Made by a program: the position numbers and the translations under genes
The notes under the pieces: generated by a model
What the model was told of the DNA's origin: nothing
Databases searched by the model: none
The model's input: only the letters and a program-made list of their open reading frames with translations
Source of the DNA: Saprospiraceae bacterium
GTDB lineage: Bacteria; Bacteroidota; Bacteroidia; Chitinophagales; JAHQVX01
Length of the DNA stretch: 34,731 nt
Assembly (NCBI GenBank): GCA_019634125.1
Contig: JAHQVX010000099.1
Location: 1-34,731, forward strand
Reading direction: 5' to 3'
Part shown: in pieces, positions 1 through 34,731 of the stretch
Numbering within the stretch: position 1 is the stretch's first letter
Layout: each line of letters begins with the position of its first letter

Positions 1-819
1 AACTACATGTTCATTTACGGCAAGTTGGGCGCACCGGCTCTAGGCGTTAAGGGAGCTGCATTGGGCACTTTGTTGGCTCGAATCATTATGCTGGTTTTAA
101 TGGTTGTCCTCTTGATCAACCAAAAACGGTTGTGGAACTATATTACGGCATGCAACTTCAAAAAATACCAACGCAGTATGTTCCAGAACTTATTGAAACT
201 GGGCATTCCTACGAGTATGCAAATGTTCTTTGAGGTCACGGCTTTTGCGGGAGCTTCCATCTTATGCGGCATGATTAGTAAAGAAGCCCAAGCTGCTCAC
301 CAAATCTCCATTAATTTGGCCAGCATCACCTTCTTAGTAGCTACTGGATTGGCGGTCACAGCCACGATTAGGGTGGGCAATCAGTTAGGGAAGCAGGACT
401 TCCCCGCGCTGCAAAGCGCGGGCATTAGCGCACTTATACAAGTCACTGGTTTTATGATCATTGGAGCGTTGGTCTTCATCTTATTCCGCCATCAACTTCC
501 TGCGATTTATAAAGCCGATAATGTTGTATTTCCGATTGCATCTGGCTTACTCTTGTATGCCGCCATTTTCCAAATTTCAGATGGCATACAAGTGGTATCC
601 ATTGGTGCGTTAAGAGGAATGCAAGATGTGTTTGTTCCAACAATAATCACATTCGTAGCGTATTGGCTCATCGGATTTCCGATGAGCTATTTCCTCATGA
701 AACCATTCGGGCCCAACGGGGTGTGGATAGGCCTTGTAGCTGGATTAAGTGTATCTGCGCTATTGAACGGCTGGCGTTTTTGGAGATTGAGTCAGCAGAA
801 AATTTCGATGCGTGTCTAA
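1..819 (+). CDS. MATE family multidrug/Na+ efflux transporter, 3' part
   Basis: This is the C-terminal 272 codons of a membrane exporter; the reading frame is open to the first base, so the true start lies outside the window. The protein is a chain of hydrophobic helices with polar turns typical of the second half of MATE proteins: a loop rich in Gly/Ala (LGVKGAALGT), the GIPTSMQMFFEV helix that opens the C-terminal bundle, and EAQAAHQIS followed by GLAVTATIRVGNQLG, a classic MATE signature. Family role: drug or metabolite antiport driven by Na+ or H+ across the inner membrane; the substrate cannot be read from sequence. It contains two perfect inverted repeats in its coding sequence (403-422 and 666-687). 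The next gene starts 39 nt downstream on the same strand. Confidence 0.9.
   Translation, partial: NYMFIYGKLGAPALGVKGAALGTLLARIIMLVLMVVLLINQKRLWNYITACNFKKYQRSMFQNLLKLGIPTSMQMFFEVTAFAGASILCGMISKEAQAAHQISINLASITFLVATGLAVTATIRVGNQLGKQDFPALQSAGISALIQVTGFMIIGALVFILFRHQLPAIYKADNVVFPIASGLLLYAAIFQISDGIQVVSIGALRGMQDVFVPTIITFVAYWLIGFPMSYFLMKPFGPNGVWIGLVAGLSVSALLNGWRFWRLSQQKISMRV
403..422. repeat. Perfect inverted repeat in MATE gene, 8-bp arms
   Basis: CCCGCGCT and AGCGCGGG are separated by GCAA. One of many perfect short-loop inverted repeats inside coding sequences of this window. Confidence 0.7.
666..687. repeat. Perfect inverted repeat in MATE gene, 10-bp arms
   Basis: GCTCATCGGA and TCCGATGAGC are separated by TT. 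It lies in a hydrophobic segment of the coding sequence and has no T-tract, so it is not an ordinary terminator. Confidence 0.8.
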
Positions 820-858
820 AACCATTTTACTGTACCACGCGTAAGTAAAATAAAAGTC

Positions 859-1404
859 ATGTTCTATTTAAAATTCATTTGCGCTATGCTCCTATTCGGC
901 ACGTCTTCCACATCTTTAGAATTTGATTTTGGGAAGGATAAAACCGGCAGTACTTGGGGAATTATCAATGATGGTGTGATGGGTGGCCGCTCCGAAGGAG
1001 CGGCATATTTGACCAACTCCAGTGTGGTCTTCACAGGAACGATCTCTTTGGAAAATAATGGAGGGTTTTCTTCATTAAGAGCGCCTTACAGCCGAATGGA
1101 TCTCTCCAATTATTCAGAAGTAGAAATTCGGTACAAGAGTTCCGGAGTGAAAAAAGCTTTCTCTATTGAGAATGATCGAAGATGGTGGAAACCGACCTAT
1201 AAAGTATTATTAGATAGTACCGGCGATGAATGGAAAACCATGACGGTTCAACTCACCGACTTTGAAGAGTATGAAATCGGACGGAACACCGGTAATCAGC
1301 TTAGTGAAGATCAACTGGATGAAATGATTCGAATTGGTTTCATTACTACTGAAAAAAAAGCGGGATCATTTTCGCTTGAAATCGATTATATCCAGTTTAG
1401 GTAA
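859..1404 (+). CDS. CIA30 domain-containing protein
   Basis: A 181-aa protein whose residues about 20-180 match the CIA30 (NADH:ubiquinone oxidoreductase intermediate-associated protein 30) beta-sandwich family: an F-D-F opening, then WGIINDGVMGGRSEG, FTGTISLENNGGFSSLR, and the closing IGFITTEKKAGSFSLEIDYI. The first 17 or so residues are hydrophobic and could be a signal peptide (FYLKFICAMLLFGTSST). Eukaryotic CIA30 helps assemble complex I; the role of free bacterial CIA30 proteins is unknown and a carbohydrate-binding-like fold is often suggested. No complex I gene is nearby. It lies 39 nt after the MATE gene and may be co-transcribed. It ends 3 nt before the convergent anti-sigma gene, with no terminator visible between. 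Confidence 0.85.
   Translation: MFYLKFICAMLLFGTSSTSLEFDFGKDKTGSTWGIINDGVMGGRSEGAAYLTNSSVVFTGTISLENNGGFSSLRAPYSRMDLSNYSEVEIRYKSSGVKKAFSIENDRRWWKPTYKVLLDSTGDEWKTMTVQLTDFEEYEIGRNTGNQLSEDQLDEMIRIGFITTEKKAGSFSLEIDYIQFR
986..1004. repeat. Perfect inverted repeat in CIA30 gene, 8-bp arms
   Basis: GCCGCTCC and GGAGCGGC are separated by GAA, inside the coding sequence just after the MGGRSEG motif. Confidence 0.7.
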
Positions 1405-1407
1405 TTC

Positions 1408-2130
1408 TTATTTTAGCTTTTTCAGCAAGGCTGCAGCCTCTTGTTGTCTTTCAAGACTAGGATCGTCGGCAATTTGCTGTGCAAGACTTATAGCTTCCTC
1501 TTTCTGACCCGTTTTAAGCAAGGTTAACATGAAGTACCAAGTAGCCTCTTCTCTAAGAAGATGCTTGGTTGTTGTATCAAAAAACGGAAGTGCTTCATTC
1601 GTCTGTTGGTTAGCTAACAGTGCTTGCCCATAGTAAAAGGAATCCAATGGAGACAATTTATTCAGACTGGCGACTTCCTCAAATGCTTGTATACTTCCAA
1701 CGTAATCTGCTTTAGAATAGCGCTCCATCGCTGTCCTAGCAAGGGTACTATCGACACTTCCGCGTTGAGTAGTGATGTCTGGATAAGGCTTATAATACGT
1801 TTGGAAAGCACTATCGGACGATAGACTTTTAGGAAGGAAAAATTGAACTGCCAATAAACCGAGAATTGCTACGGAAGCCGCCACTAAAAGTCCTTTTAGT
1901 GGCCCAATAGAACGCCGCTTAGTTGTTACCGCAGGAGCTTCATAGTCAGCTGAGATCTGTTTGAGTTGTTGTTTCAAGGCACTTCGCCCAGCGGCTTTCA
2001 CAATGGCTTCATCCAATAATGCTTTAAAGGATTCATCTTGCTCTCTATCGGCAAAAATCGCTCGCTCTTCCTCAGAAAGCGTATTCGCCATAAACCGTTC
2101 TATCAATTCTACATCTGATAATCTACTCAT
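1408..2130 (-). CDS. Membrane-anchored anti-sigma-like TPR protein
   Basis: A 240-aa protein with three parts: an N-terminal cytoplasmic domain (residues 1-75) opening LSDVELIERFMANTLSEEER, one transmembrane helix (about 78-99, LKGLLVAASVAILGLLAVQFF), and a C-terminal extracytoplasmic part (about 125-240) of helical TPR-like repeats (YSKADYVGSIQAFEEVASL, FYYGQALLANQQTNEALPFF). The layout (short N-terminal domain, one TM, periplasmic sensor) and its 4-nt ATGA overlap with the ECF sigma gene upstream suggest an anti-sigma factor. No zinc-binding HxxxCxxC motif is present, so it would be a non-ZAS type; the function is inferred from context. The coding sequence carries an 11-bp perfect inverted repeat just before the TM segment. 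It is probably translationally coupled to the sigma gene. Confidence 0.72.
   Translation of the reverse strand: MSRLSDVELIERFMANTLSEEERAIFADREQDESFKALLDEAIVKAAGRSALKQQLKQISADYEAPAVTTKRRSIGPLKGLLVAASVAILGLLAVQFFLPKSLSSDSAFQTYYKPYPDITTQRGSVDSTLARTAMERYSKADYVGSIQAFEEVASLNKLSPLDSFYYGQALLANQQTNEALPFFDTTTKHLLREEATWYFMLTLLKTGQKEEAISLAQQIADDPSLERQQEAAALLKKLK
1880..1903. repeat. Perfect inverted repeat in anti-sigma-like gene, 11-bp arms
   Basis: GCCACTAAAAG and CTTTTAGTGGC are separated by TC. It encodes the stretch at the start of the membrane helix. Confidence 0.85.
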
Positions 2131-2729
2131 GAAAGCAAGTTTTGGATAATGGATTGATAGTAGGGCGTTTCACGGACAACTTTTCTCAAACGTTTTAAAC
2201 AACGTGTTTTCTTATTCCGCGCAATTTGGTCGTTCTTATATTCCATGGCATGTGCTATCTCTTCCATAGTGGCTCGTTGATATAGACTCATAATCATCAC
2301 CCGCTTACAGTCTTCTCCAACATTTAAGAACAATTGTTCAATAAATGCTTCTGAATCAGGATTATAAAACTCCATATTCTCCGTTTCATTCGTTGTAGCC
2401 GAGGCATCTTCCCAAAACTCGGGAACAGCAATTGTGGCTTTGTTCTTTTTTAATTTATTCAGCCAAATAATTCGGCTTACAGAATATATATAGGTAGAAA
2501 TAGCACTTCGTAACTTAAATTGCCCACTTTTAATTTTCTCATAAAAAACAATGATGGCATCTTGCAACACATCTTCCGCATCAGTGGATGTACCATTGTT
2601 CGTCAAAACCATATGAGATACAGATTTGATACATCGTGCGTAGACTTGACCCAATGCATGATTCTCTTGCTTACTATGCCCAGAAAGTAAATGGACGATT
2701 TCTTGATCGGATAAGTTCTTTTTGCCCAT
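2127..2729 (-). CDS. RNA polymerase ECF-type sigma factor
   Basis: A sigma-70 family protein of about 200 aa with region 2 (EDVLQDAIIVFYEKI, then STYIYSVSRIIWLNKLKK, the core-binding and -10-recognising helices) and region 4 (CKRVMIMSLYQRATMEEIAHAM, then ARNKKTRCLKRLRK, the -35-recognising helix-turn-helix). It lacks regions 1 and 3, as ECF factors do. I chose the ATG at 2729; an in-frame GTG at 2741 would add MSST. Its stop overlaps the start of the TM/TPR protein (ATGA), the usual sigma/anti-sigma arrangement. Likely targets are the divergent lipoprotein/TPR-CHAT operon and the TSP3 lipoprotein, because both share an unusual bipartite upstream motif. No copy of that motif lies upstream of the sigma gene itself on its own strand, so direct autoregulation is not seen. 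Confidence 0.9.
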   Translation of the reverse strand: MGKKNLSDQEIVHLLSGHSKQENHALGQVYARCIKSVSHMVLTNNGTSTDAEDVLQDAIIVFYEKIKSGQFKLRSAISTYIYSVSRIIWLNKLKKNKATIAVPEFWEDASATTNETENMEFYNPDSEAFIEQLFLNVGEDCKRVMIMSLYQRATMEEIAHAMEYKNDQIARNKKTRCLKRLRKVVRETPYYQSIIQNLLS

Positions 2730-2772
2730 GGTTGAGGACACAAATTAATAACAAATCAGAAATCATGGTTCC

Positions 2773-2793
2773 TAGGAATAAAAAAAATTCCTA
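2773..2793. repeat. Inverted repeat in the divergent sigma/lipoprotein intergenic region
   Basis: TAGGAAT and ATTCCTA flank a run of seven A in the 124-bp gap between the divergent sigma factor and lipoprotein genes. It ends 5 nt before the putative ECF promoter motif at 2798. It could be a regulator site for either direction; no regulator is identified. Confidence 0.55.
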
Positions 2794-2797
2794 CTTT

Positions 2798-2830
2798 GTG
2801 ATTACATCTATTAGGTTTGGTCTATAAACT
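2798..2830 (+). promoter_or_regulatory. Putative ECF-type promoter, copy 1
   Basis: GTGATTACATC, 12 nt, then TCTATAAACT, ending 23 nt before the lipoprotein ATG. An ungapped comparison with 6304-6336 gives 22 identical bases out of 33, concentrated in two blocks: GTGRTTACATC and TCTATNNACT. This two-block form fits -35 and -10 elements of an alternative sigma factor, and it does not resemble the housekeeping TTTG/TAnnTTTG promoter. Its recognition by the neighbouring sigma factor is inference. Confidence 0.6.
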
Positions 2831-2853
2831 GCCGGACTAAATAAAATCAAATT

Positions 2854-3420
2854 ATGTTACGAATTTCATTTTTACTATGCATTGTGCTGAGCGTTTTCGC
2901 GGGTTGTAACAATGTGGAATCAACAATTGAAGAAGATGTATTACTTAGAAAAAAACGAAGAACCATTACTGCAAATGCTGGAACATCGACGTCTTCCTCA
3001 GGCAGTTCTACGGACTGTTTCTTTAATGATATGCTCTATGCAGATCAAAACTCTTGGTTGTTTGATAATGGAGGCGGTTTTCCTCAAGAGTATTTTAGCT
3101 TTTTCTATGTACAATCAACGAGTATAATTCCAGAAACAGCTGTGGTTACACATATCGTGTGTAATTCAGATCCAAGTCTGGTTATCAATGATTGGGCTGA
3201 ATACCAAATTGTAGATGAGAATCAAGATGGCGTAATAGAATGTGTAGTGGATAGCCACAATGCTTCTAATCTATTGTCGGCTTCAACCCCAAAGATGGTG
3301 TTTATGGATATCGCTAATCGACCATGGCCACATAACGAACCACATAACTTTACAATTACTGTTCAGGTAGGTTCTGACACCTTACAATTTACATTCGATT
3401 ATTTAGTGGTTGCTCAGTAG
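2854..3420 (+). CDS. Hypothetical lipoprotein upstream of TPR-CHAT protein
   Basis: A 188-aa protein I do not recognise. Residues 1-18 form a lipoprotein signal peptide ending in the lipobox FAGC (lipidated Cys18). A Ser/Thr/Gly-rich linker follows (NAGTSTSSSGSSTD), then a probably beta-rich domain with three further cysteines and one acidic Ca2+-loop-like stretch (DENQDGVIE). It should sit on the periplasmic or outer-membrane surface. Its stop overlaps the GTG start of the TPR-CHAT gene by one base (TAGTG), so the two are translationally coupled, and the shared promoter motif puts it under the same proposed sigma factor. It may be the partner, ligand or sensor of the CHAT protein; this is inference from gene order only. 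Confidence 0.75.
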   Translation: MLRISFLLCIVLSVFAGCNNVESTIEEDVLLRKKRRTITANAGTSTSSSGSSTDCFFNDMLYADQNSWLFDNGGGFPQEYFSFFYVQSTSIIPETAVVTHIVCNSDPSLVINDWAEYQIVDENQDGVIECVVDSHNASNLLSASTPKMVFMDIANRPWPHNEPHNFTITVQVGSDTLQFTFDYLVVAQ

Positions 3421-6161
3421 TGAAGCAGATACTTTTAATACTTGTATTTAATTTAATCGGAAGCCCATTGCTGTTCAGCAATGGGCTTTTGAATGTAGAT
3501 TCCACATTCAACGCCACTTCAGAACATTTTGCCAGATATGATTATCCAGCAGCTATTTCTACCTTAAATCTTTTACTTGACCATTTTAATGGGCAAGATG
3601 ATTATGAAGTGGCTTACTTACTCATGTGGAAAGCCTATGCTTATGACCAATCCGAAGATTTCGCAGCTATGGAAGCGACTATCCAACAAATGGATACACT
3701 TAGAATACAAACATCGAATCCTGATGCGCGACTCTTTTTCGATAGTCGAGAAGAGTTTTTCTTAGAATGGAATTATTTAAAAGGCACTAATCTCTTTAAC
3801 CAAGGCAATTATGAAGCGGCCAAATTCTACTTCGGCCAACTCCACACTTTCGATCCAGAGGCTTGGAGCTTTGATGTAGTCCTCCCGCTTATCAATGCAG
3901 CTGTGGCCATGCAACGAACTGGTGATTACTCAAAAGCTATTTCTTATCTAGAAACAGCTTATCCCCTAGTGCAAACTAACAGTGTAAAACTTGACCTCAT
4001 CGACAATCTGGTAACCGCATACATTGAGTTAGGCCAGTTTGAATCAGCTCAAAAAAGATTAAACCAAGTAGAAGAAAATGGTTGGTTAGATGGCGCAAAA
4101 ATTTCTGACCAAGCTTATTTTTTGATTCATGCCTTTCATGTGGAAGCGTTGTTAGGTCATTCTGAATCTTTTGAAGCCTATCTCAAGAAAGCTGAAGCTA
4201 TTGCGCCTAAATTGGAAAGTAGAGAACTTGTCCACCTTAAGCGTATTCGCGCAAAAGCCCATCAAGCGCTTGGCAATCCTGAAGCAGCAGAAGTTAGTTT
4301 TGAAGCAGCAGAAAAAGAACTGCTTGCCCCCAATAGTTACTTTTCGGCACAACATGGCAAATACGCTCAATTACTCCTAGAAATGGGAAAGAATTACGAA
4401 GCAAAAAAGGGTTACTCCAAGGCATTATCCGTTTACCAGAAAGGATTAGGCGTTCTTCTACCTAACTTCGAATACAAGAATAACGAAGAACATCCACAGG
4501 ATTTAACGTCCACTTCTAGAAGCTTTCTCTATGACCTCTTAATCGCTAAAGCTGAAGTACTTCACCATCAAGAAAACTTTAAAGGCGCTTTAAAAAACTA
4601 TGAATTAGCAGCAGAAGTGGTTGAAAACACCATTCGATACGCAACATTCACTAAGGAATCCACCTATCGTTTATTAAAAACTGCCAAGCAAAACAACGAA
4701 TCGGCCATTGACCTTGCATTTACAACCCAAGACTATAAAACGGCCTTCTATTTCTCCCAAAAAAGCCATGCGTTGTATCTGCAGAGCAATCTCGATATTC
4801 ATGCAGCCAAAATCCAAGCTGGGGTTCCCGACTCCTTACTTCAACAAGAGCGTAACCTGAAACTTGACATTGCAGCTTATGAAAACCGTTCAAAGAGCCG
4901 GCAAGAGCTGTCCCAAAATTTAAGAACAGCGGAATTGAATTACGATGTCTTTGTGAACCAACTTCGTGCCGACTATCCCATTTATACTTTACTTCAGGTA
5001 CCCGAAAAGATCTCTGTTTCGGCCATTCGAAAACGCCAACGCAAAAACAAGAGCAGTTACTTAGAGTATTTTCTGGGCGAGAAGTCCTTGTATATTTTCT
5101 CTATCAATTCAAAAGGGCTTTCTGTTCAACGTCAAGAAAATACACAGGCATTACGTGCATCTATTTCCCAATTAAACCAAGCTATTACAGAACCTTGGGA
5201 CAATTCAACCTCGGTGGAGAATAGTAAGATCAAGTTTGCAGAAATTGCTCATCAACTGTATCAAGTACTCATCGAACCGATTCAGGGACACTTAAAGAAA
5301 AAAATCACCATTATTCCAGATGACCTACTCGCCACACTACCTTTCGAAGTATTACTTCAATCAAAGAATAGTTTATCGTATAAAACGATGGATTATCTAA
5401 TTCGAGACTATGAGATCAGCTATAGCTATTCTGCTCAAATGTATTCAAATCAAGCAGGCTTGGATAGAGATGAAGGAGTAAGATCCGTAGTCTTTGCCCC
5501 AAGTTTTACGCCTTCACAAAACCTAGTTCAATTAGCGGGGAATCAGGAAGAAGCTGAGTACTTAAAAACGCGTTTTGAGGCTATAGCCTATACTGACTCT
5601 TTAGCCACAAAAAAAGAGTTCTTCAAAAATATGCGTGACTTCGAAGTCATACATTTGGCCACACACGCCACTGTTGACAGCACACAGGCTTACATCGCAT
5701 TCTATGGAGACAGCACGGATTATCGCTTGGACTTGAATGAGATTTATGACTTGAATTTACAAGCGGAAATGGTCGTCCTAAGTGCATGTGAAACATTAAA
5801 AGGCCAACTTCAAGATGGTGAAGGCATTCTGAATTTATCGCGAGCCTTTTCTACTGCGGGAAGTAAAAGTACTATAGCTACGCTTTGGTCCGTTAACGAT
5901 ATCCAAAGTAGTAAGCTCATCCAAGGGTTTTACGAAAATTTAAGTGAGGGCATGTCGAAAGATGAAGCGTTAAGGAATGCTAAAATCAACTATATCGAGA
6001 ACGAACCTATAGTAGCTCCTTACTTCTGGGCGGCATTTACGCCTACTGGCAATATGCAAGCACTAAAGCCTGCCAAACGTTTTCCATATTTTCTTATGGT
6101 CATACCACTATTATTGTTGGCTCTATTGGGCGTCTTTTTGCTCAAGAAGAATAGGCATTAG
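3420..6161 (+). CDS. Exported, membrane-anchored TPR-CHAT (caspase-like) protein
   Basis: A 913-aa protein. Residues 1-22 look like a signal peptide (QILLILVFNLIGSPLLFSNG). About 30-450 are TPR-like helical repeats (AISTLNLLLDHF, AAKFYFGQLHTF, KAISYLETAYPL, KALSVYQKGLG, ALKNYELAAEVV). A charged coiled-coil stretch follows (about 460-510), then a CHAT domain (about 590-880) with the caspase-type dyad: His749 in HLATHA and Cys790 in VVLSACETLKG. A C-terminal TM helix (about 888-908) is followed by KKNRH. The predicted topology places TPR and CHAT parts in the periplasm. The GTG start is chosen because it overlaps the preceding stop codon and gives a good signal peptide. CHAT domains are cysteine peptidases related to separase and caspases; the substrate here is unknown. 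A 13-bp perfect hairpin plus T-run lies 41 nt inside the gene and might attenuate transcription. Confidence 0.88.
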   Translation: MKQILLILVFNLIGSPLLFSNGLLNVDSTFNATSEHFARYDYPAAISTLNLLLDHFNGQDDYEVAYLLMWKAYAYDQSEDFAAMEATIQQMDTLRIQTSNPDARLFFDSREEFFLEWNYLKGTNLFNQGNYEAAKFYFGQLHTFDPEAWSFDVVLPLINAAVAMQRTGDYSKAISYLETAYPLVQTNSVKLDLIDNLVTAYIELGQFESAQKRLNQVEENGWLDGAKISDQAYFLIHAFHVEALLGHSESFEAYLKKAEAIAPKLESRELVHLKRIRAKAHQALGNPEAAEVSFEAAEKELLAPNSYFSAQHGKYAQLLLEMGKNYEAKKGYSKALSVYQKGLGVLLPNFEYKNNEEHPQDLTSTSRSFLYDLLIAKAEVLHHQENFKGALKNYELAAEVVENTIRYATFTKESTYRLLKTAKQNNESAIDLAFTTQDYKTAFYFSQKSHALYLQSNLDIHAAKIQAGVPDSLLQQERNLKLDIAAYENRSKSRQELSQNLRTAELNYDVFVNQLRADYPIYTLLQVPEKISVSAIRKRQRKNKSSYLEYFLGEKSLYIFSINSKGLSVQRQENTQALRASISQLNQAITEPWDNSTSVENSKIKFAEIAHQLYQVLIEPIQGHLKKKITIIPDDLLATLPFEVLLQSKNSLSYKTMDYLIRDYEISYSYSAQMYSNQAGLDRDEGVRSVVFAPSFTPSQNLVQLAGNQEEAEYLKTRFEAIAYTDSLATKKEFFKNMRDFEVIHLATHATVDSTQAYIAFYGDSTDYRLDLNEIYDLNLQAEMVVLSACETLKGQLQDGEGILNLSRAFSTAGSKSTIATLWSVNDIQSSKLIQGFYENLSEGMSKDEALRNAKINYIENEPIVAPYFWAAFTPTGNMQALKPAKRFPYFLMVIPLLLLALLGVFLLKKNRH
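3461..3488 (+). repeat. Perfect 13-bp hairpin in the 5' end of the TPR-CHAT gene
   Basis: AAGCCCATTGCTG and CAGCAATGGGCTT are separated by TT and followed by two more T. It spans codons 14-23 (end of the signal peptide). It has the form of a weak intrinsic terminator or a translation-blocking hairpin placed inside the second gene of the operon. Confidence 0.8.
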
Positions 6162-6946: not shown

Positions 6947-6968
6947 CTGTTCGTGTTATTTATGCTTT

Positions 6969-6998
6969 CCCCCTCGGCTTTGCCGAGGGGGATTTTTT
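6969..6998 (+). terminator. Intrinsic terminator after TSP3 lipoprotein
   Basis: CCCCCTCGGC, TTT loop, GCCGAGGGGG, then ATTTTTT. A perfect 10-bp GC-rich stem with T-tract. It separates the sigma/CHAT region from rluF. Confidence 0.92.
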
Positions 6999-7047: not shown

Positions 7048-7800
7048 ATGGAGCCAAACAATGCCAACTCCGTAAGTTTAAACAAGTACATTGCCGATAC
7101 CGGGGTTTGTTCTAGAAGAGAAGCAGACAAACTCATCAAAGCGGGCAAGGTAAAAATCAATGGACGATTGGCTATTTCTGGGAATCGAGTGATGGAGGGC
7201 GATCGAGTCACCCTCAACGGCAAGCCGTTGAGGGAAAAGCCAACACCCCTCTATATTGCATTTCATAAACCCGTCGGCGTAGTGTGCACCACCGATAAAC
7301 GCGAGAAAGACAACATCATCGACTTTATCAATCATCCTAAACGACTCTTCCCCATAGGCCGCCTCGATAAAGCTTCCGAAGGACTCATTTTCCTCACCAA
7401 CGATGGAGATATCGTCAATAAGATTCTTCGAGCGCACAACAAAAAAGAGAAAGAATACATCGTCACCGTAAGGCAAAAAATCACGCCTGATTTCATTCGT
7501 AAAATGAGTAACGGTGTGCCTATACTAGATACGGTGACAAAAAAATGTAAAGTAGAACAGCTATCCAGCAAGACATTCAAAATCATCCTCACCCAAGGCC
7601 TCAATCGGCAGATACGTAGAATGTGTGAGTACTTCAACTATGATGTGGTAAAATTACTTCGTGTTCGAATTATGCATGTACACCTAGGTAAATTGAAAGT
7701 AGGCACATGGCGCCCGTTAACCCCAAAAGAGCTTTCAACACTTCATAAAGCCTTGGAACAAAGCACAAAAACTTCAAACTACGCTAAGAAGTCCAGTTAA
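7048..7800 (+). CDS. rluF: 23S rRNA pseudouridine synthase RluF-like
   Basis: A 250-aa enzyme. The N-terminal S4 RNA-binding domain (SLNKYIADTGVCSRREADK, KVKINGR) is followed by the RsuA/RluB/E/F-type catalytic domain with the GRLDKASEGLIFLTNDGD segment, which contains the catalytic Asp, and with GLNRQIRRMCEYFNYDVVKL and LRVRIMHVHLG, which point to the RluF branch. RluF isomerises a uridine (U2604 in E. coli) of 23S rRNA. The ATG at 7048 is preferred: the 12 residues before it are not conserved and would overlap the promoter. The gene sits alone between a terminator and a transporter. It carries an 11-bp perfect inverted repeat at 7211-7234, in the S4 linker. Confidence 0.9.
   Translation: MEPNNANSVSLNKYIADTGVCSRREADKLIKAGKVKINGRLAISGNRVMEGDRVTLNGKPLREKPTPLYIAFHKPVGVVCTTDKREKDNIIDFINHPKRLFPIGRLDKASEGLIFLTNDGDIVNKILRAHNKKEKEYIVTVRQKITPDFIRKMSNGVPILDTVTKKCKVEQLSSKTFKIILTQGLNRQIRRMCEYFNYDVVKLLRVRIMHVHLGKLKVGTWRPLTPKELSTLHKALEQSTKTSNYAKKSS
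7211..7234. repeat. Perfect inverted repeat in rluF, 11-bp arms
   Basis: CCCTCAACGGC and GCCGTTGAGGG are separated by AA. It encodes TLNGKPLRE in the linker after the S4 domain. Confidence 0.85.
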
Positions 7801-9825: not shown

Positions 9826-9854
9826 AACCCCCAGCCTTTGGCTGGGGGTTTTGC
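9826..9854 (+). terminator. Intrinsic terminator after SulP gene
   Basis: AACCCCCAGCC, TTT loop, GGCTGGGGGTT, then TT. Perfect 11-bp stem between the convergent SulP and hydrolase genes; it probably serves both, with the better T-tract for SulP. Confidence 0.9.
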
Positions 9855-11354: not shown

Positions 11355-11383
11355 AAAAAAAACCGCCCAAAGGGCGGTTTTTT
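11355..11383 (-). terminator. Intrinsic terminator of the MBL beta-CASP gene
   Basis: AAAAAACCGCCC, AAA loop, GGGCGGTTTTTT: a perfect 12-bp symmetric stem 2 nt after the minus-strand stop codon, with a T-tract on both strands. The MBL gene is the only one ending here. Confidence 0.9.
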
Positions 11384-12847: not shown

Positions 12848-12872
12848 ACGCCCGCCTTTGGCGGGCGGGCGT
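12848..12872 (-). terminator. Terminator-like hairpin after rhodanese gene
   Basis: ACGCCCGCC and GGCGGGCGT can pair; a nested alternative is CGCCCGCC-TTT-GGCGGGCG. It lies 26 nt beyond the stop of the cysCDN-rhodanese operon. The T-tract on the minus strand is poor. Confidence 0.6.
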
Positions 12873-20661: not shown

Positions 20662-21846
20662 TTAGGCTTCAAGTTGTTTATAAGCCATCCAAGCCATCAT
20701 GCCGGCCCCTACTTTTAACGCCTCTTGATCGATGTCGAATGTTGAGGTATGAACCGGAGAGGTGATGCCTTTAGCAGGGTTTCCTGTACCTAACCGAAAA
20801 AAGCAACCAGGCACTTGGTGGGAATAAAAGGAAAAGTCTTCCGCTGTCATGCGAATAGGCAGATCTACCACATTCTCTTCTCCGAGATATTCTTGTGCCC
20901 AAGCTTTTGCTTTGGAAGTGAGTGCAGCGTCGTTTACCAAACAAGGATAGCCTTTTCGAACATCCATATCAATTTCACAGTCATGCTGTTGAGCGATTTC
21001 TGCTGCTTTAGTGCGGAGAATATCATGAATTCGAGCGCGCCAGTCTTCGTCCATGGTTCGAAGTGTTCCTTCGATATGTACTTTGTCGGGGATGACATTG
21101 GTTGCTCCATTAGCCATCACTTTTCCAAAGGCTAATACGGTGGGAATAGACGCTGGCTGCGCACTGTTTACAGCAGCGCGTAACGCAGGCAGTAGCGCAT
21201 TCATTACAATAATGGGATCGATCAGGTCTTCTGGCAAGGCGGCATGGCCGCCTTGGCCTGTGATGGTTACGAACAACTCATCGGCACTGGCCATGTACAA
21301 ACCCGGCTTCAACCCAATTTTTCCCACTTCTAATGGTGGATGCACATGCTGCCCTATAATAGTTTCAACCCTTGGTTGTTCGAGCACACCTGCTTTGATC
21401 ATCAATGAAGCTCCACCTGGCAAACGCTCTTCGCCAGGCTGAAAAATCAGCTTAATAGTGCCACTAAATTGATCACGAAGTCGATGCAGAATTCCTGCAG
21501 CACCTAGCAAACAAGTTGTATGTACATCATGGCCACAAGCATGCATAATGCCTGGATGTTTCGACACATAATCGACCTGATTCGTTTCTTGAATAGGTAA
21601 GGCATCAATATCGGCCCGAAGAGCAATGGTTTTTCGCTCTGGCTGCTGGCCTTTGATATAGGCAACTAAGCCTGTTTCCGTGAAATGATCTTCGTAGGAA
21701 ATGCCTAATTCATCTAACTGCCGTTTGATATAGGCTGTTGTTTCAAACTCCTGGAAAGACAATTCGGGATGTGCATGGATATGCCCCCGAATATCAAGCA
21801 ACTTTGGGAAGAGCTCGGCAACAGCAGCTTGAATTTGGGCTTTCAT
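20662..21846 (-). CDS. M20 family metallopeptidase/amidohydrolase
   Basis: A 394-aa enzyme (start MKAQIQ at 21846) of the M20D aminoacylase/IAA-amino-acid hydrolase group: HAHPELSFQEFET, ALRADIDALPIQETN, the metal motif HACGHDVHTTCLLGAAGIL, FQPGEERLPGGASLMI, and MTAEDFSFYSHQVPGCFFRLG. It hydrolyses N-acyl amino acids or short peptides with two zinc or manganese ions; the substrate is unclear. A longer reading frame exists upstream (21885) but overlaps the SPOR gene. The chosen ATG is 1 nt after the SPOR stop, suggesting coupling. An inverted repeat with 9-bp arms lies at 21235-21255. Confidence 0.93.
   Translation of the reverse strand: MKAQIQAAVAELFPKLLDIRGHIHAHPELSFQEFETTAYIKRQLDELGISYEDHFTETGLVAYIKGQQPERKTIALRADIDALPIQETNQVDYVSKHPGIMHACGHDVHTTCLLGAAGILHRLRDQFSGTIKLIFQPGEERLPGGASLMIKAGVLEQPRVETIIGQHVHPPLEVGKIGLKPGLYMASADELFVTITGQGGHAALPEDLIDPIIVMNALLPALRAAVNSAQPASIPTVLAFGKVMANGATNVIPDKVHIEGTLRTMDEDWRARIHDILRTKAAEIAQQHDCEIDMDVRKGYPCLVNDAALTSKAKAWAQEYLGEENVVDLPIRMTAEDFSFYSHQVPGCFFRLGTGNPAKGITSPVHTSTFDIDQEALKVGAGMMAWMAYKQLEA
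21235..21255. repeat. Perfect inverted repeat in M20 peptidase gene, 9-bp arms
   Basis: CAAGGCGGC and GCCGCCTTG are separated by ATG. Confidence 0.75.
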
Positions 21847-22227: not shown

Positions 22228-22872
22228 CTATCTTATTAGTTGCAAGCTGGAAGAGCAACCGAGGCGGGAAGCTCCTGCCTCAATAAACGCTTCTGCTTGC
22301 GCTTTTGTTTTAATACCTCCCGAGGCTTTGATTTGGATATGCTCGGGCAATACTTGTCTCATTAATTGTACATCTTCCAAAACTGCGCCAGAATGGCTAA
22401 ATCCGGTAGATGTTTTCACGAAGTCGACCTCAATTTCCGCACAAAGTTCGCAAATGGATTTGATTTCGTTTTGGTTGAGTAAGGCGGTTTCAATAATCAC
22501 TTTTAGGACTACATCTTCTGCTTTACAGATGGCAAAAATAGCTTGAATATCGTTGCGAACGACATCAATTGCTCCACTTTTAAATGCGGAGATGTTCATA
22601 ACCATATCCATTTCGTGGGCTCCATCTTCGATGGCGCTAAAGGCTTCCACCATTTTTGCAGTGGAGAGGTTATAGCCGAGGGGGAAGCCAATGACTGTAG
22701 CTACTTTGACGCCACTACATTTCACCTGTTCTGCGGCTTGAGCTACGAAGTTGGGCGGCACACACACGGCTGCAAAGCCGTGGGTGATGGCTTCTCTGCA
22801 GAGCTGGGCGATATCCGCTTCGGAACAGTCTGGCTTTAAAAGCGTGTGATCAATGTAGGCAGCGAGATTCAT
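22228..22872 (-). CDS. deoC: Deoxyribose-phosphate aldolase
   Basis: A 214-aa class I aldolase: IDHTLLKPDCSEADI, AAVCVPPNFV, VATVIGFPLGYN, EMDMVMNISAFKSG, VIIETALL, and the Schiff-base Lys in VDFVKTSTGFS. It splits 2-deoxyribose-5-phosphate into glyceraldehyde-3-phosphate and acetaldehyde during nucleoside breakdown. I chose ATG 22872 because the next 42 nt upstream run into the promoter. A -7-like box lies 5 nt before it. The 7-bp inverted repeat at 22765-22782 (CACGGCT, GCAA, AGCCGTG) is inside the gene. Confidence 0.94.
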   Translation of the reverse strand: MNLAAYIDHTLLKPDCSEADIAQLCREAITHGFAAVCVPPNFVAQAAEQVKCSGVKVATVIGFPLGYNLSTAKMVEAFSAIEDGAHEMDMVMNISAFKSGAIDVVRNDIQAIFAICKAEDVVLKVIIETALLNQNEIKSICELCAEIEVDFVKTSTGFSHSGAVLEDVQLMRQVLPEHIQIKASGGIKTKAQAEAFIEAGASRLGCSSSLQLIR

Positions 22873-22903: not shown

Positions 22904-22930
22904 TGAAAACCCACCGCCTACGGCGGTGGG
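22904..22930 (-). terminator. Intrinsic terminator of secA
   Basis: Minus strand: CCCACCGCC, GTA loop, GGCGGTGGG, then TTTTCA and further T. Perfect 9-bp stem 51 nt after the secA stop. It isolates the deoC operon. Confidence 0.85.
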
Positions 22931-22980: not shown

Positions 22981-25900
22981 CTAAGCCCCGTGGCACTTTT
23001 TAAACTTCTTACCACTTCCACATGGGCAAGGATCGTTTCGGCCCACTTTTGGCCCTGCCACGACAGGCTGACGACGCTCGTTGCGCTCATTACCCGTTCT
23101 TGCTCCTTTGTACTCATTGGTTTGAGCTGCTTCCGCTTGCCGGTTGGTTTGAACTCCACGCAAGTCGGTTTTTTGCTCCTTTGCTTCTTGAACATTCTGC
23201 TTCGGCAAATCGGCGTGCATCAAGAACGAAGACACTTCACGATTGATCTCATTCAAAATATTCTGGAACAGTTCAAAGGCTTCAAACTTATAGATCAATA
23301 ATGGATCTTTTTGCTCGTATGTCGCCATTTGTACCGATTGACGTAATTCGTCCATAGAGCGCAAGTGCTCTTTCCAGTTATTGTCGATAAAGGCCAGCAC
23401 GGCGGTTTTCTCAAACTCTTCAACAATTGGCTTGCCTGCTTGATCCATCACTTCTTGCAGGTTCACAAGCGTGTTGATCACCTTTTTGCCATCACTGAAA
23501 GGGATGGCCACATTATTAACGGTATCGCCGCGTTGCTTGTGAATGTTCTGCAGAACCGGATATGCTGTTTTCAAGATATTTTCTTTCTTACGCTCATAGG
23601 CGTTCATGAACTCTTGAAACAATTGACTTGTCAATTGTTGAGCTGTTTCACTTCGCCAGGTTTGTTCATCGAAAGGAATATCAGTACTGAGCACGCGTAG
23701 TGCATCTTCTCTAAAGTCCGAAAACTCAGAAGCCCCATGATGATTATTCACCAACTCTTCTACTAAGTCATACAACATATTCTCTAGGTCGAAGGACAAA
23801 CGCTCTCCGAACAAGGCATGTTTTCTACGCTTATAGATGACTGTACGTTGATTGTTCATCACATCATCGTACTCGAGTAAGCGCTTACGAATTCCGAAGT
23901 TGTTTTCTTCGACTTTCTTTTGTGCATTCTCTACGGATCGAGTAATCAGGCTATGCTGAAGGACTTCACCTTCTTGGAACCCCATTCGATCCATAAGGCT
24001 AGCCACTTTTCCACTAGCGAATAAACGCATAAGGTTATCTTCCAACGATAAGAAGAATTGCGAGCTACCCGGATCTCCTTGACGACCGGCACGACCTCTT
24101 AACTGTCGGTCTACTCGTCTAGAGTCATGACGTTCCGTAGCGATGATGGCTAAACCACCTGCATCTTTAACGCCTTGACCTAGCTTAATATCTGTACCAC
24201 GACCAGCCATATTGGTAGCAATCGTTACATTTCCGGCCATACCTGCTTCACCAACAATCTCCGCTTCGCGTTGGTGCTGCTTGGCATTTAATACATTATG
24301 TGGAATGCCTTTCATGCGCAATAGCTTCGCTACCAATTCCGAACTTTCTACCGAACTCGTACCTACAAGGACGGGACGTCCTTGCTCGCGCATCAATTCA
24401 ATTTCCTCAATGACCGCATTGTACTTTTCACGTGCGGTCTTATAAATTTTATCGTTCCGATCATCTCGTATAATCGGCCTATTCGTAGGAATAGTCACTA
24501 CATCTAACTTATAGATGTCCCAAAGCTCTTTTGCCTCCGTTTCAGCTGTACCGGTCATACCAGCAAGCTTGTGATACATTCGGAAGAAGTTTTGCAACGT
24601 AATGGTGGCGAAGGTTTGAGTAGCTGCCTCAATCTTTACACTTTCTTTGGCCTCAATAGCTTGGTGCAGTCCATCAGAATAACGACGTCCATCCATGATA
24701 CGCCCCGTCTGTTCGTCAACAATTTTCACTTCGCCTTCCATAACAACGTATTCAACATCTTTCTCGAAAAGCGCATACGCCTTGAGTAATTGTTGAACCG
24801 AGTGTAAACGCTCTCCTTTTAAGCTGTATTCGGCTAAGATTTTGTCTTTCTCACTAATGCGCTCTTCATCTGAAAGTTCGGTCTGTTTATCCAACTCTTC
24901 CATCTTCTCACCTAAGACTGGCATAACGAAGAAGTCAGGATCTTCATCTTTTCGCGTTAGGAAGTCAATTCCTTTATCGGTAAGCTCAATACTATTTTGC
25001 TTCTCATCAATCACGAAGTATAATTCATCATCAACGATATGCATATTCTTAGCTTGATCTTGTAAATAGAAGTTTTCTACTTTCTGAAGAATACTCTTCG
25101 ATCCTTGCTCACTGAGGTATTTGATTAACGGCTTCGACTTGGGAAACCCTCTATGTGCTCTAAGTAAAGCCAGTCCACCACTTTGTTGATCGGCATTACC
25201 TGCTTCAATTTCCTTCTTAGCATCTACTAGAAAGCTGCCTACTAATTTCTTCTGTGCATTAACTAAGCTCTCAATTCTAGGCTTTAAAGTTTCATACTGT
25301 TGTTGATCGCCTTTGGGCACGGGTCCAGAAATAATCAATGGGGTTCGCGCATCATCAATTAATACGGAATCTACCTCATCAATCATGGAATAGTGGTGCT
25401 TTCGCTGAACTTGCTCAGAAGCATTGCGCACCATGTTATCTCTTAGGTAATCGAAACCAAATTCGTTATTGGTTCCGTACGTAATATCTGCATTGTAGGC
25501 CTGTCGGCGACTGTCGGTGTTTGGGCTATGCTTATCGATGCAATCTACGGTTAAGCCGAGGAATTCCATGATTGGCCCCATCCATTCCGAGTCACGTCGG
25601 GCAAGGTAATCGTTCACAGTAATCACATGCACGCCTTCTCCCGCTACTCCATTCAGATATGCTGGTAATGTGGCCACTAAAGTTTTTCCTTCCCCGGTAG
25701 CCATCTCTGCAATTTTTCCGGAGTGCAATACCATTCCCCCTATCAACTGAACATCGTAATGCACCATGTCCCAGTCAATTCTATTGCCGGCTGCCAACCA
25801 AGAGGTTTGATACGTCACTTTGTCACCATCAATGGAAATATGCTCCCGATCTGACGCAATTTGCTTATCTAATTCAGTAGCTGTTGCGGAAATCGCATCG

Positions 25901-26872: not shown

Positions 26873-28441
26873 ATGCAAAGAGATGTATTTATTGATGCTT
26901 TGGAGCGACATCCTGAGAAAGTCTGGGATGTCATAATTATTGGTGGTGGAGCTACTGGATTAGGCTGTGCGGTAGATGCGGCCTCTCGAGGCTACTCTAC
27001 CCTTTTGCTAGAACAGCATGATTTTTCGAAAGGTACAAGTAGTAGAAGCACCAAGTTGGTGCATGGTGGGGTTCGTTACCTAAAACAAGGCGATGTTTCA
27101 TTAGTACTTGAAGCGTTAAAAGAGCGCGGTCTTCTACTCCAAAACGCCCCGCATTTAGTCCGAAATCAAAGCTTTGTAATTCCCACTTACGATTGGTGGG
27201 GCGGCCCTTTCTACACGGTTGGACTGAAGGTATACGATATGATGGCCGGAAAATTTGGTTTGGGCCCAAGCAAGAATTTAAATAAGCAAGAAACTTTAAG
27301 TGCCATCCCGAATGTAGAACAAGAAGGCCTCAATGGCGGAGTGAAATACCACGATGGGCAATTCGATGATGCGCGTCTAGCCATCAACCTGGCGCAAACA
27401 GCTGAACAACACGGTGCGTCAGTCATCAACTATATGAAAGTGCGGAACTTGGTGAAAGATGAAGATGGATTGGTCAAAGGCGTTGTTGCCGAAGATCGAG
27501 AAACAGAGGTCTCACATACGATCCAAGGAAACGTGGTCATTAACGCTACGGGGGTCTTTGTAGACAAGGTTTTGAAAATGGATAATCCAGATGCAAAGCG
27601 AAGCATTCAGCCCAGTAGGGGCGTACATTTAGTCTTGGATAAAAGCTTTCTCCAAGGAGAGCATGCCATTATGATCCCCAAAACCAGTGATGGTCGCGTT
27701 TTGTTTTTAGTTCCATGGCACGATGTAGTCATAGTAGGCACGACAGACACGCTCCAAAAAAAGCCTCAGTTAGAACCAACCTCCACGGAAGAAGACATTG
27801 AGTTTATTCTAAACAACGCCCAACAATACTTAGCTAAAAAACCCACACGAGCCGATGTGTTGAGTGTATTTGCTGGATTACGTCCGTTGCCGGCTCCAAA
27901 AAGTAAGGATGTAAAAACCAAGGCCATCTCCAGAGGGCACCAAATTATTGTAGCATTGAGTGGACTTGTTACGGTTATTGGAGGGAAATGGACAACATAC
28001 CGAAAAATGGCTGAAGAAATTATTGACAAAGCCAGTATGGTTGGTGGATTAGATGACAGGGAATGCATGACTAAAAACCTAAAGATCCATGGTTGGCAGC
28101 AACATGAAGACTTTTCAGACCCGATGTATTTTTTCGGGAGTGATCGCCAGAAAATTGAAGCGTTGTGGGAGACACATCCAGCATTAAAAGAAAAAGTGCA
28201 TCCAGCGTTTCACTTTACGAAGGCGGAGGTGGTTTGGAGCACGCGCCATGAGATGGCGCGTACAGTCGAAGACATCTTGTCTCGCCGCCAACGCGCCCTA
28301 CTCTTCGATGCACGAAGTGCCTTAGAGGCTGCTTCAATCGTTGCTGAAGTCATGGCGCAAGAACTAGGAAAAGATCAGGCTTGGATTGAAAAACAAATTC
28401 GTGCGTTTACCGAGCTAGCTTCGGGTTATATTCTGAACTAA
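26873..28441 (+). CDS. glpD: Glycerol-3-phosphate dehydrogenase (FAD-dependent)
   Basis: A 522-aa flavoprotein: Rossmann motif VIIIGGGATGLGCAVDAASR, then GTSSRSTKLVHGGVRYLKQG, FLVPWHDVVIVGTTDT, and VTVIGGKWTTYRKMAEE; the C-terminal domain has EVVWSTRHEMARTVEDILSR. It oxidises glycerol-3-phosphate to dihydroxyacetone phosphate at the inner membrane and passes electrons to quinone. It is preceded by DUF1801 (10 nt) and followed 70 nt later by glpK; together they catabolise glycerol. The 9-bp inverted repeat at 28241-28261 (ACGCGCCAT, GAG, ATGGCGCGT) encodes part of the TRHEMART stretch. Confidence 0.96.
   Translation: MQRDVFIDALERHPEKVWDVIIIGGGATGLGCAVDAASRGYSTLLLEQHDFSKGTSSRSTKLVHGGVRYLKQGDVSLVLEALKERGLLLQNAPHLVRNQSFVIPTYDWWGGPFYTVGLKVYDMMAGKFGLGPSKNLNKQETLSAIPNVEQEGLNGGVKYHDGQFDDARLAINLAQTAEQHGASVINYMKVRNLVKDEDGLVKGVVAEDRETEVSHTIQGNVVINATGVFVDKVLKMDNPDAKRSIQPSRGVHLVLDKSFLQGEHAIMIPKTSDGRVLFLVPWHDVVIVGTTDTLQKKPQLEPTSTEEDIEFILNNAQQYLAKKPTRADVLSVFAGLRPLPAPKSKDVKTKAISRGHQIIVALSGLVTVIGGKWTTYRKMAEEIIDKASMVGGLDDRECMTKNLKIHGWQQHEDFSDPMYFFGSDRQKIEALWETHPALKEKVHPAFHFTKAEVVWSTRHEMARTVEDILSRRQRALLFDARSALEAASIVAEVMAQELGKDQAWIEKQIRAFTELASGYILN
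28241..28261. repeat. Perfect inverted repeat in glpD, 9-bp arms
   Basis: ACGCGCCAT and ATGGCGCGT are separated by GAG. Confidence 0.75.
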
Positions 28442-28511: not shown

Positions 28512-30005
28512 ATGGATAAATATGTATTAGCCTTAGATCAAGGCACGACTTCATCACGAGCGGTTTTGGTGAATCGATTGGGAGAAATTGTTGGTCAGGC
28601 TCAACAGGAATTCACTCAGTATTTCCCTCAACCTGGTTGGGTTGAACACGACGCTATGGAGATTTGGCAATCACAGCAAGCTGTGATTGCTCGCCTCCTC
28701 CAAGACCATTCCGTGGCTAAAGATCAGCTTGTAGCGCTGGGTATCACCAATCAGCGCGAAACGACTATTGTATGGGATCGCGCTACTGGTCGGCCCATTC
28801 ACCCAGCCATTGTCTGGCAAGATCGGCGCACTGCCGGCTATTGCGACAACCTCCGTGCCCAAGGGCACGGAGCGATGATCCAAGAAAAAACAGGCCTGGT
28901 TTTAGATGCCTACTTCAGCGGCACCAAACTCAAATGGGTCTTAGACCATGTAGATGGGGCCCGACAACGGGCTGAGGACGGCGAACTGGCCTTCGGCACC
29001 GTAGATACTTGGCTGATGTGGAACTTATCGAATGGAGCGATTCATGCCACCGACGTAACCAATGCCAGTCGAACGCTGCTCTTCAACATTCACACGCTAG
29101 AATGGGACAACGACTTATTGGCGTTATTGGACATATCCAAAGCCCTGCTACCGCAGGTAAAGAGTTGCAGCGAATCGTACGGAACTTGCAGAATCGACGA
29201 AGTGGAAGGCCTTGAAATCACCGGCGTAGCCGGTGATCAACAAGCAGCATTGTTCGGACAATTATGCACAGAACCTGGCATGGTGAAGAATACCTATGGA
29301 ACTGGCTGCTTTATCATGGCAAATACAGGCGAAACGGCCATTGCCTCCAAGAACAACCTCCTCACCACCATCGGTTGGCAACTCAATGGCAAGACGACCT
29401 ATGCCATGGAAGGCAGTGTCTTTATTGCAGGAGCCATTGTACAATGGCTTCGAGATGGCTTGGGTATTATTTCTGATAGCGCCGACGTGGAAGCATTAGC
29501 CGCAGAAGTAGAGTCTAATGAAGGCGTTTACTTAGTTCCTGCCTTGGCCGGACTTGGCGCGCCGCACTGGGATCAATATGCTCGAGGCACTATCATTGGG
29601 CTAACCCGAGGAAGTACAAAAGCCCACATCGCCCGAGCAGCTCTTGAAAGCATCGCCTACCAAACCTATGATGTAGTGAAAGCGATGGAAGCCGATAGTG
29701 GTATCCAACTCAAAGAACTCAAAGTAGATGGCGGGGCAACAGCCAACAAGCTCTTAATGCGTTTTCAGGCCGATATTTTGAATATGGATGTCAAAAAACC
29801 ACAATTCGCTGAAACGACCGTACTTGGCGCTGCCTACTTTGCAGGACTTGCTGTAGGATTTTGGGAAGATCTTGAAGCTCTGAAAACCCAATTTAAAATC
29901 GCAGAAAGTTATCACCCAACTATGGAAGCTGCGCGGAGAAAAGCATTAGTGCATACATGGCACGAAGCGGTAGAACGGGCAAAAAATTGGGAACCAAAGG
30001 CGTGA
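28512..30005 (+). CDS. glpK: Glycerol kinase
   Basis: A 497-aa FGGY kinase: [84 protein letters not shown], and [17 protein letters not shown]. It phosphorylates glycerol to glycerol-3-phosphate for GlpD. Length equals the E. coli enzyme (about 500 aa). No glpF facilitator is in the window. The gene contains three perfect inverted repeats (28667-28690, 28851-28872, 29217-29237). Confidence 0.97.
28667..28690. repeat. Perfect inverted repeat in glpK, 11-bp arms
   Basis: GCAATCACAGC and GCTGTGATTGC are separated by AA, encoding QSQQAVIA, a variable part of glycerol kinase. Confidence 0.85.
28851..28872. repeat. Perfect inverted repeat in glpK, 10-bp arms
   Basis: CTCCGTGCCC and GGGCACGGAG are separated by AA, encoding LRAQGHGA, another variable part of the kinase. 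Confidence 0.85.
29217..29237. repeat. Perfect inverted repeat in glpK, 9-bp arms
   Basis: ATCACCGGC and GCCGGTGAT are separated by GTA. This one encodes the conserved TGVAGDQ motif. Confidence 0.75.
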
Positions 30006-30007
30006 AC

Positions 30008-30036
30008 GAAAAACCCCACGCCAAAGGCGTGGGGTT
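30008..30036 (-). terminator. Intrinsic terminator between glpK and glutamine synthetase
   Basis: AACCCCACGCC and GGCGTGGGGTT are separated by AAA. The better T-tract (TTTTTCG) is on the minus strand, so it suits the glutamine synthetase gene. It sits between convergent genes and may also stop glpK transcripts. Confidence 0.85.
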
Positions 30037-30070
30037 ACATAATTCTGAAAGTGTTTTAAAACGCTAAGTC

Positions 30071-31084: not shown

Positions 31085-31118
31085 AGGTGCGGTTTTATGT
31101 GCGTTTAATTATAAGTGT

Positions 31119-34061: not shown

Positions 34062-34062
34062 G

Positions 34063-34731
34063 ATGTGTAAGATATATTGGACGCTGCTTCTATGTATCGG
34101 CTTGGCTTCCTGTACAGGAAGCCAAGCGGCACGTAATAAAGAAGCGCGAGAAGATGCGGCGAAAATGGCCGAAGCAAGAGCCTTGCAGCGGCTAGTACCT
34201 TATGAACTAACCGTAGATGCAGAGACAACTCCTGTACAGTCTTCATCGGGCGAAGATGCGGCAGACGACCCAGCGATTTGGTACAATTCAACTTCTCCAG
34301 AAAAGTCAATTATAATTGGCACCAACAAAGTAGCTGGATTGTACACCTATGATCTGGATGGGAATGAGTTGCACTTTTCCGCATGCGGAAAAGTCAACAA
34401 TGTAGATGTCAGAGATGGGTTTTTAATGGGTGACCGCTCGATTATTTTGGTTGCTGCTTCGAATCGAAGCAGCCAAACCATTTCCCTATTTGAATTAAAC
34501 GGGGAAACCGGACAGCTCTCCAATTCCTTGGGAGAAATTAAAACCCATGTAGATGATGTGTACGGCTTTACACTCTATGAAGATCAGGGGGAATTTTTTG
34601 CCATTTCCAATGGCAAAAATGGCGTGATAGAAGTTTTTCAACTCCAAGAAGCCAATAACACCATCACTGGCAAACTCACACAAGAATTTAAAGTGGAATC
34701 TCAACCTGAGGGGATGGCAACTATAGACAAT
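34063..34731 (+). CDS. Beta-propeller phytase-like lipoprotein, 5' part
   Basis: The first 223 codons of a protein cut by the window end. Residues 1-17 are a lipoprotein signal with lipobox LASC (Cys17). A short charged helix follows, then the beta-propeller phytase opening: SSSGEDAADDPAIWYN, IIGTNKVAGLYTYDLDG, NNVDVRDGF, and ISLFELNGETGQL, plus YGFTLYEDQG. The DDPAIW and GTNK...GLYTYDLDG blocks are family hallmarks; acidic residues bind Ca2+ and phosphate. The enzyme removes phosphate from phytate at the cell surface. Coupled with the TonB-dependent receptor (stop/start separated by one base). It contains four perfect inverted repeats in 0.67 kb, one centred on the lipobox Cys codon. Confidence 0.88.
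   Translation, partial: MCKIYWTLLLCIGLASCTGSQAARNKEAREDAAKMAEARALQRLVPYELTVDAETTPVQSSSGEDAADDPAIWYNSTSPEKSIIIGTNKVAGLYTYDLDGNELHFSACGKVNNVDVRDGFLMGDRSIILVAASNRSSQTISLFELNGETGQLSNSLGEIKTHVDDVYGFTLYEDQGEFFAISNGKNGVIEVFQLQEANNTITGKLTQEFKVESQPEGMATIDN
34100..34127. repeat. 28-nt perfect palindrome in phytase gene
   Basis: GCTTGGCTTCCTGT directly followed by ACAGGAAGCCAAGC, no spacer. Its centre is within the codon of the lipidated Cys17. Confidence 0.9.
34373..34394. repeat. 22-nt perfect palindrome in phytase gene
   Basis: ACTTTTCCGCA directly followed by TGCGGAAAAGT, no spacer. Confidence 0.9.
34453..34473. repeat. Perfect inverted repeat in phytase gene, 10-bp arms
   Basis: GCTGCTTCGA and TCGAAGCAGC are separated by one A. 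Flanking TTGG/CCAA bases allow further pairing with a small bulge. Confidence 0.85.
34595..34619. repeat. Perfect inverted repeat in phytase gene, 11-bp arms
   Basis: TTTTTGCCATT and AATGGCAAAAA are separated by TCC. Confidence 0.85.

Follow-up and report, generated by a model that had tools for sequence, protein, structure and literature searches.

Perfect short-loop hairpins throughout the coding DNA of a Saprospiraceae bacterium and their possible origin by quasipalindrome correction

The coding sequences of this Saprospiraceae genome carry perfect short-loop hairpins at about 30 to 40 times the level expected by chance or seen in relatives, which corresponds to several hundred to over a thousand such hairpins in the whole genome. 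The excess is confirmed as genome-wide and real. The hairpins obey the loop and stability rules of folded DNA, are neutral with respect to strand, are filtered by protein function and are accompanied by comparatively few single-mismatch stems. On balance, we believe them to be the standing product of a lineage-specific, overactive quasipalindrome correction that is filtered by protein function, although we hold this view with little more than even confidence.

Coding hairpins in the window and across the genome

The window analyzed here, a stretch of 34,731 nucleotides, is contig 89 of 146 in a genome of 2.2 Mb with an estimated completeness of 83%. The genes present, which include gliding-motility-type and TonB-receptor genes, are Bacteroidota-like in content. 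An exhaustive scan of the window for perfect inverted repeats retrieved 14 coding hairpins whose arms reach 10 bp or more. In 100 synonymous-codon shuffles of its 31 coding genes, which preserved the protein and codon counts of each gene, the mean was 0.15 and the maximum was 1. With arms of at least 9 bp, 18 hairpins were observed against 0.78 in the shuffles. An earlier note on this DNA had estimated about 0.2 repeats with arms of at least 10 bp from uniform base composition, in agreement with the shuffle mean. All 13 repeats that it had listed with arms of 10 to 14 bp lie where it had placed them (loops of 0 to 3 nt), and its repeats with arms of 7 to 9 bp were likewise all recovered. Every entry in that list is real; the list omits a 10-bp hairpin in secA (23618-23639) and a 9-bp palindrome in glpK (29432-29449).

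At the start of the window, a MatE-family gene contains hairpins at 403-422 (arm of 8 bp, loop of 4 nt) and 666-687 (arm 10, loop 2). A CIA30-domain gene follows with a hairpin at 986-1004 (arm 8, GAA loop), then the gene at 1408-2130 with one at 1880-1903 (arm 11, loop 2) and a TPR/CHAT gene with one within its first codons at 3461-3488 (arm 13, loop 2). Sigma-factor-like, TPR-like, and TPR/CHAT genes are clustered in this region (1408-6161; CHAT assigned by Pfam, the others by eye). A pseudouridine-synthase-like gene, recognized by eye from its translation, bears an 11-bp stem with an AA loop of the C[AA]G class at 7211-7234. Further hairpins are found in a methyltransferase gene (16697-16716; arm 8, loop 4), a glycosyltransferase gene (17445-17469; arm 11, GAA loop with C-G closing pair), a radical SAM/DUF3641 gene (19277-19299; arm 10, loop 3), a DUF547 gene (20043-20064; arm 10, loop 2), and an M20-like peptidase gene identified by eye from the translation (21235-21255; arm 9, loop 3). 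The deoC-like open reading frame has a hairpin of chance-level size at 22765-22782 (arm 7, loop 4), and another spans its 5' end at 22910-22930 (arm 9, GTA/TAC loop). In secA, the hairpin at 23618-23639 has an AA loop on the coding strand, and a second lies at 24366-24384 (arm 8, loop 3). A glycerol-3-phosphate dehydrogenase-like gene (by eye, from the translation) has a hairpin at 28241-28261 (arm 9, loop 3). Those of glpK are at 28667-28690 (arm 11, AA loop), 28851-28872 (arm 10, AA loop), and 29217-29237 (arm 9, GTA loop), in addition to the palindrome at 29432-29449, which has no loop and is centered on GTAC. Finally, a partial phytase gene on the forward strand (34063-34731; Pfam PF02333), which continues beyond the end of the window, contains loop-free palindromes at its start (34100-34127; arm 14, GTAC center) and at 34373-34394 (arm 11, CATG center), together with hairpins at 34453-34473 (arm 10, loop 1) and 34595-34619 (arm 11, loop 3).

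Within 834 kb of DNA from the same genome, 246 coding hairpins (arms of at least 10 bp, loops of 0 to 4 nt) were found, against about 6 from the summed means of synonymous shuffles. When the analysis was extended to 1.08 Mb, the scan counted 458 coding hairpins of at least 9 bp in arm length, 315 of which reached 10 bp or more. The 458 are distributed over 338 of the 938 predicted genes in this set, and the load is even among contigs (chi2/df of 0.85). At arms of at least 10 bp, the excess over shuffles is about 40-fold across the whole genome. Codon-preserving shuffles, which the earlier note had proposed as a check, were thus far exceeded in both the window and the genome.

Other bacteria yielded 17 hairpins in 1.49 Mb of coding DNA (19 were counted, 2 of which represented the genome's own glpK locus and were removed). 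These comparison loci came mainly from Bacteroidota and Verrucomicrobiota, plus same-order relatives, and the same-order genomes sampled contained 2 hairpins in 243 kb (a few short pieces were masked). Thus, the excess is specific to the lineage rather than order-wide and is roughly 30-fold above other bacteria. A GlpK scan of genome contigs found no close relative (best identity, 64%), and the nearest orthologues share about 60 to 65% protein identity. In 19 kb of coding sequence from Dysgonomonas sp. Marseille-P4361 (locus L171), three perfect hairpins occur that are AT-rich and reach arms of 10 bp or longer, above the GC-based expectation; this is possibly another affected genome. A CRISPR array, sought for spacers that might point to phages of the host, was absent from the 1.08 Mb.

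Fold stability and placement of the hairpins

The coding stems measure 8 to 12 bp, most commonly 9 to 10 bp, with loops of 0 to 4 nt and no consensus among the arm sequences. The arm-length distribution has two peaks: up to 6 to 7 bp it matches the shuffles, after which a separate, longer class appears. Among hairpins with 3-nt loops, arms of 9, 10, 11, and 12 bp occur 80, 69, 35, and 15 times, against about 2, 1, 1, and 0 in shuffles, and none in this set reaches 13 bp. The number of hairpins with loops of at least 5 nt does not exceed that in shuffles. Mirror repeats of identical geometry are at background level, and low complexity was therefore rejected as a cause. No iterated motif with a fixed consensus, as in HIP1 or Chi, was seen; only the loop and its closing pair show preferences.

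These preferences are those of DNA hairpins. The 3-nt loops are GNA (TNC on the opposite strand) in 162 of 255 cases, against 552 of 3109 (18%) chance hairpins with stems of 4 to 6 bp (p = 5e-53), and a C-G pair closes 101 of these GNA loops. Of about 100 2-nt loops, 57 are C[AA]G, compared with 173 of 3129 (5.5%) in the same reference set, and GNNA is preferred among 4-nt loops. GNA and GNNA loops with a G-C closing pair form exceptionally stable, nuclease-resistant DNA mini-hairpins (PMC4686876). Stem length decreases with GC content (Spearman -0.32, p = 3e-7), such that AT-rich stems are longer. The predicted DNA free energy is about -10.4 +- 1.9 kcal/mol, a spread narrower than that obtained by permuting arm length over GC content (0/2000 permutations). 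Given the loop rules and this trade-off between GC content and length, the class is defined by the stability of folded DNA and not by sequence. Outside genes, GNA-loop hairpins have stems of 9 to 10 bp, as they do within genes, at only about twice the coding density.

A further intergenic class with AAA loops occurs genome-wide, with stems mostly of 10 to 16 bp. Five intergenic hairpins in the window (6968-6992, 9826-9850, 11357-11383, 12848-12872, and 30012-30036), most of which have AAA/TTT loops flanked by A/T, fall outside the coding class and look like terminators readable from either strand.

The hairpins show no strand preference attributable to transcription or replication. GNA and TNC occur on the coding strand in a ratio of 86:76 (306:246 for chance hairpins), and the bias of the A-rich 2-nt loop toward the coding strand is about that of CAAG over CTTG in coding DNA. 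Within contigs, the GNA strand is random (114 pairs the same, 133 different); a fixed replication strand was thus rejected as an explanation. Spacing is near Poisson (mean of 1.5 kb, CV of 0.92). Position within genes is roughly uniform, except that the first 60 nt hold somewhat more hairpins than expected (41 versus 26).

Protein function leaves a clear mark. The start phases of 3-nt loops (phases 0, 1, and 2) are distributed 140:36:79, and from codon geometry we read the favored phases as those that put the wobble base in two of three base pairs. For 18 hairpins in 7 protein families (16 to 29 orthologues each), the mean pairwise identity among orthologues is 0.447 at hairpin sites and 0.608 elsewhere, which bears out the suggestion that the repeats prefer variable protein positions. 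At these 18 sites, the organism's own residues deviate no more than is expected for such columns. The longest hairpin-free stretches cover gldK-N-like, ribosomal-protein, and sucAB-like genes (identities by eye). Such a pattern marks a process at the DNA level whose products are filtered by protein function, and it weighs against an artifact. The earlier statement that the repeats are unrelated in sequence, lie on both strands, and keep the reading frame also holds. Two contig ends (L007:11100-11537 and L084:6017-6454), probably strain variants, differ at 15 positions over 438 bp (96.6% identity) and share an unchanged hairpin.

Perfect stems predominate. At 10 bp, 265 perfect stems were found against 3.0 by shuffle, while stems with exactly one internal mismatch numbered 116 against 50. 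The single-mismatch excess is about one-quarter of the perfect excess; such stems are thus above background, yet comparatively rare. Decay by point mutation alone would be expected to give excesses of similar size. It thus seems that mismatches are eliminated, unless the hairpins are of recent origin.

Quasipalindrome correction and competing explanations

Among the causes put forward in the earlier note, quasipalindrome correction fits best. Known from the Ripley model and the lacZ QP reporters of Escherichia coli, it likewise produces perfect repeats of arbitrary sequence through single-strand fold-back. The hairpins described here resemble its products in having perfect arms of arbitrary sequence that are enriched over a codon-preserving null, and the GNA and CAAG loops and the GC-length trade-off point indirectly to the predicted dependence on fold-back stability. 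In E. coli, quasipalindrome mutations perfect a repeat with one arm as the template, and template switching is restrained by nucleases, ExoI and RecBCD among them (PMC6357072). Quasipalindrome or template-switch mutation has been described at rare hotspots or as a small genome-wide excess (PMC6357072, PMC8794818). In contrast, the excess here (arms of at least 10 bp) is about 40-fold over one whole genome, the event itself being deduced from its presumed products.

In the proposed mechanism, a single strand would be exposed during replication or repair, and an imperfect inverted repeat whose loop is tight would fold back on itself. One arm would then template the other, presumably by short template switching, and so perfect the repeat. 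Only folds that are stable as DNA would be captured, namely, those with C-GNA-G or C-AA-G loops and GC-rich or longer stems. Selection on the protein would purge changes to conserved residues, so that hairpins remain at variable positions and in favorable codon phases. A later mismatch in the stem would be corrected again, such that perfect forms predominate. The process may be favored by a permissive background, for example through lack of single-strand exonucleases. Quasipalindrome correction thereby explains the arbitrary sequence, the perfection, the loop and stability rules, the strand neutrality, and the protein filter.

It does not by itself explain the size limit. A toy correction model run on shuffled genes gave a peak near a stem of 10 bp but too many stems of 12 to 14 bp. 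The non-coding GNA hairpins, which keep stems of 9 to 10 bp at only about twice the coding density, also count against a simple correction model. Either the model must include a limited copying tract or a step that eliminates longer hairpins, or else the element is selected for size. Self-comparison of the 1.08 Mb yielded almost no paralogue pairs with informative differences.

A search of the whole genome, which is 83% complete, did not detect RecJ, the ExoVII large subunit (XseA), or full-length SbcD; these absences may be assembly gaps. RecJ scored over the cutoff in 23 of 25 relatives. Because the genome is incomplete, the absence of RecJ is only suggestive. Within the 1.08 Mb, about half of the genome, the genes that flank RecJ in a relative were not found intact. 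Loss of SbcCD or ExoVII alone was rejected as a cause, since many relatives that lack both are free of the hairpin excess, and these losses are therefore insufficient. A whole-genome search detected MutS1, and loss of MutS was rejected.

The hairpins might instead be a selected DNA element defined by structure, if some process needs about one stable hairpin of 21 to 25 nt every 1.5 kb and recognizes its fold rather than its sequence. Replication restart, chromosome organization, uptake, or self-marking would be candidate roles. We regard such selection as a possible but rather unlikely origin. It would account for a distinct size class bounded both below and above, for the equal size of coding and non-coding stems, for the narrow stability range, and for the tolerance of longer terminator hairpins in the same genome, and the density is comparable to what is generally known for iterated motifs such as HIP1. 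However, the Poisson spacing, the lack of strand orientation within contigs, and the lack of a preferred gene position are not what such an element suggests, and no candidate reader was identified. Passive filtering also predicts the gaps, which cover genes that are conserved or probably expressed at high levels. Slightly more doubtful still is the specific form of this idea, in which around a thousand sequence-free hairpins, limited in size (about 21 to 25 nt) and stability, are read by their fold and serve a role like that of Chi, HIP1, or uptake sequences without a consensus. A structure-recognizing hairpin-binding protein, also among the causes proposed earlier, may yet be involved.

Selection on mRNA, whereby hairpins stabilize transcripts, pause ribosomes, or terminate or attenuate transcription within genes, appears improbable. 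All of the hairpins would also fold as RNA, and the slight surplus at gene starts (first 60 nt) is compatible with such a role. However, G-T mismatches on the coding strand (12 versus 7.5 expected), which would pair as G-U in RNA, are not favored over A-C (19 versus 9.0), and the orientation of loops is that of chance hairpins. The GNA triloops reflect a DNA preference. In the 1.08 Mb, T-runs beside coding hairpins are no more common than at random coding sites; the T-run that follows the stem of an intrinsic terminator accompanies the intergenic AAA-loop hairpins and not the coding ones. Since G-U is not favored and T-runs are absent, both mRNA structure and termination are unlikely, and the earlier proposals of mRNA hairpins and of intragenic termination or attenuation find no support in orientation, G-U pairs, T-runs, or position.

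An artifact of assembly, amplification, or library preparation is very improbable. Fold-back chimeras do create inverted repeats in some libraries, and this metagenome-assembled genome is fragmented and incomplete. Nevertheless, reading frames stay open, the phase of 3-nt loops is biased as codon flexibility predicts, conserved columns are avoided, all contigs are equally affected, and two contig ends with 3.4% divergence carry the same hairpin unchanged. The artifact reading, which the earlier note had named as grounds for abandoning its claim, is thus disfavored by codon-phase and conservation filtering. Least credible of all is a dispersed palindromic family inserted in genes, as in Rickettsia, where palindromic elements occur as repeat-family copies inside open reading frames: palindromes within frame-keeping genes are common to both, but the arms here are unrelated, and a self-BLAST of the 1.08 Mb found almost no hairpins common to different loci, as the earlier note had anticipated in setting aside a repeat family.

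Other systems share parts of the pattern. A small excess of 6- to 9-bp inverted repeats in prokaryotic coding DNA, for which template switching was offered as an explanation, is attributed to Ladoukakis and Eyre-Walker (2008) in a later paper (PMC4060949). As cited there, those repeats are likewise coding and above a null; here, arms of up to 7 bp are near background and the excess lies at 9 to 12 bp. Mitochondrial genes of Nematomorpha contain many perfect coding palindromes with near-binary arm identity, for which conversion was proposed (PMC6649704). Those palindromes are up to 284 bp long and belong to a small organelle genome, whereas the present hairpins are about 21 to 25 nt long, lie on a bacterial chromosome, and have GNA or AA loops. 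HIP1 of cyanobacteria is a single fixed 8-bp palindrome, highly iterated and linked to DNA methyltransferases (PMC4390886); it is similarly frequent genome-wide, but here only the fold recurs and there is no consensus. A 2023 survey of 1,565 bacterial genomes reported 27 to 113 inverted repeats per kb under a looser definition than ours (PMC10434271). In the open-access literature, we came across no description of such a pattern in a bacterial chromosome.

Biological significance

If the hairpins are mutational in origin, this would be a natural lineage whose coding genome is much reshaped by template switching on DNA hairpins. It would show how far sequence-directed mutation can reach against protein constraint, with single-strand exonucleases as a testable brake. 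If the hairpins are selected, they would constitute an iterated genomic signal recognized by shape alone. Either way, they provide a statistically strong, strand-resolved record of the DNA loops that fold in vivo (GNA and AA closed by C-G), and they suggest that short single-strand folds keep rewriting the DNA of this organism or are themselves favored by selection.
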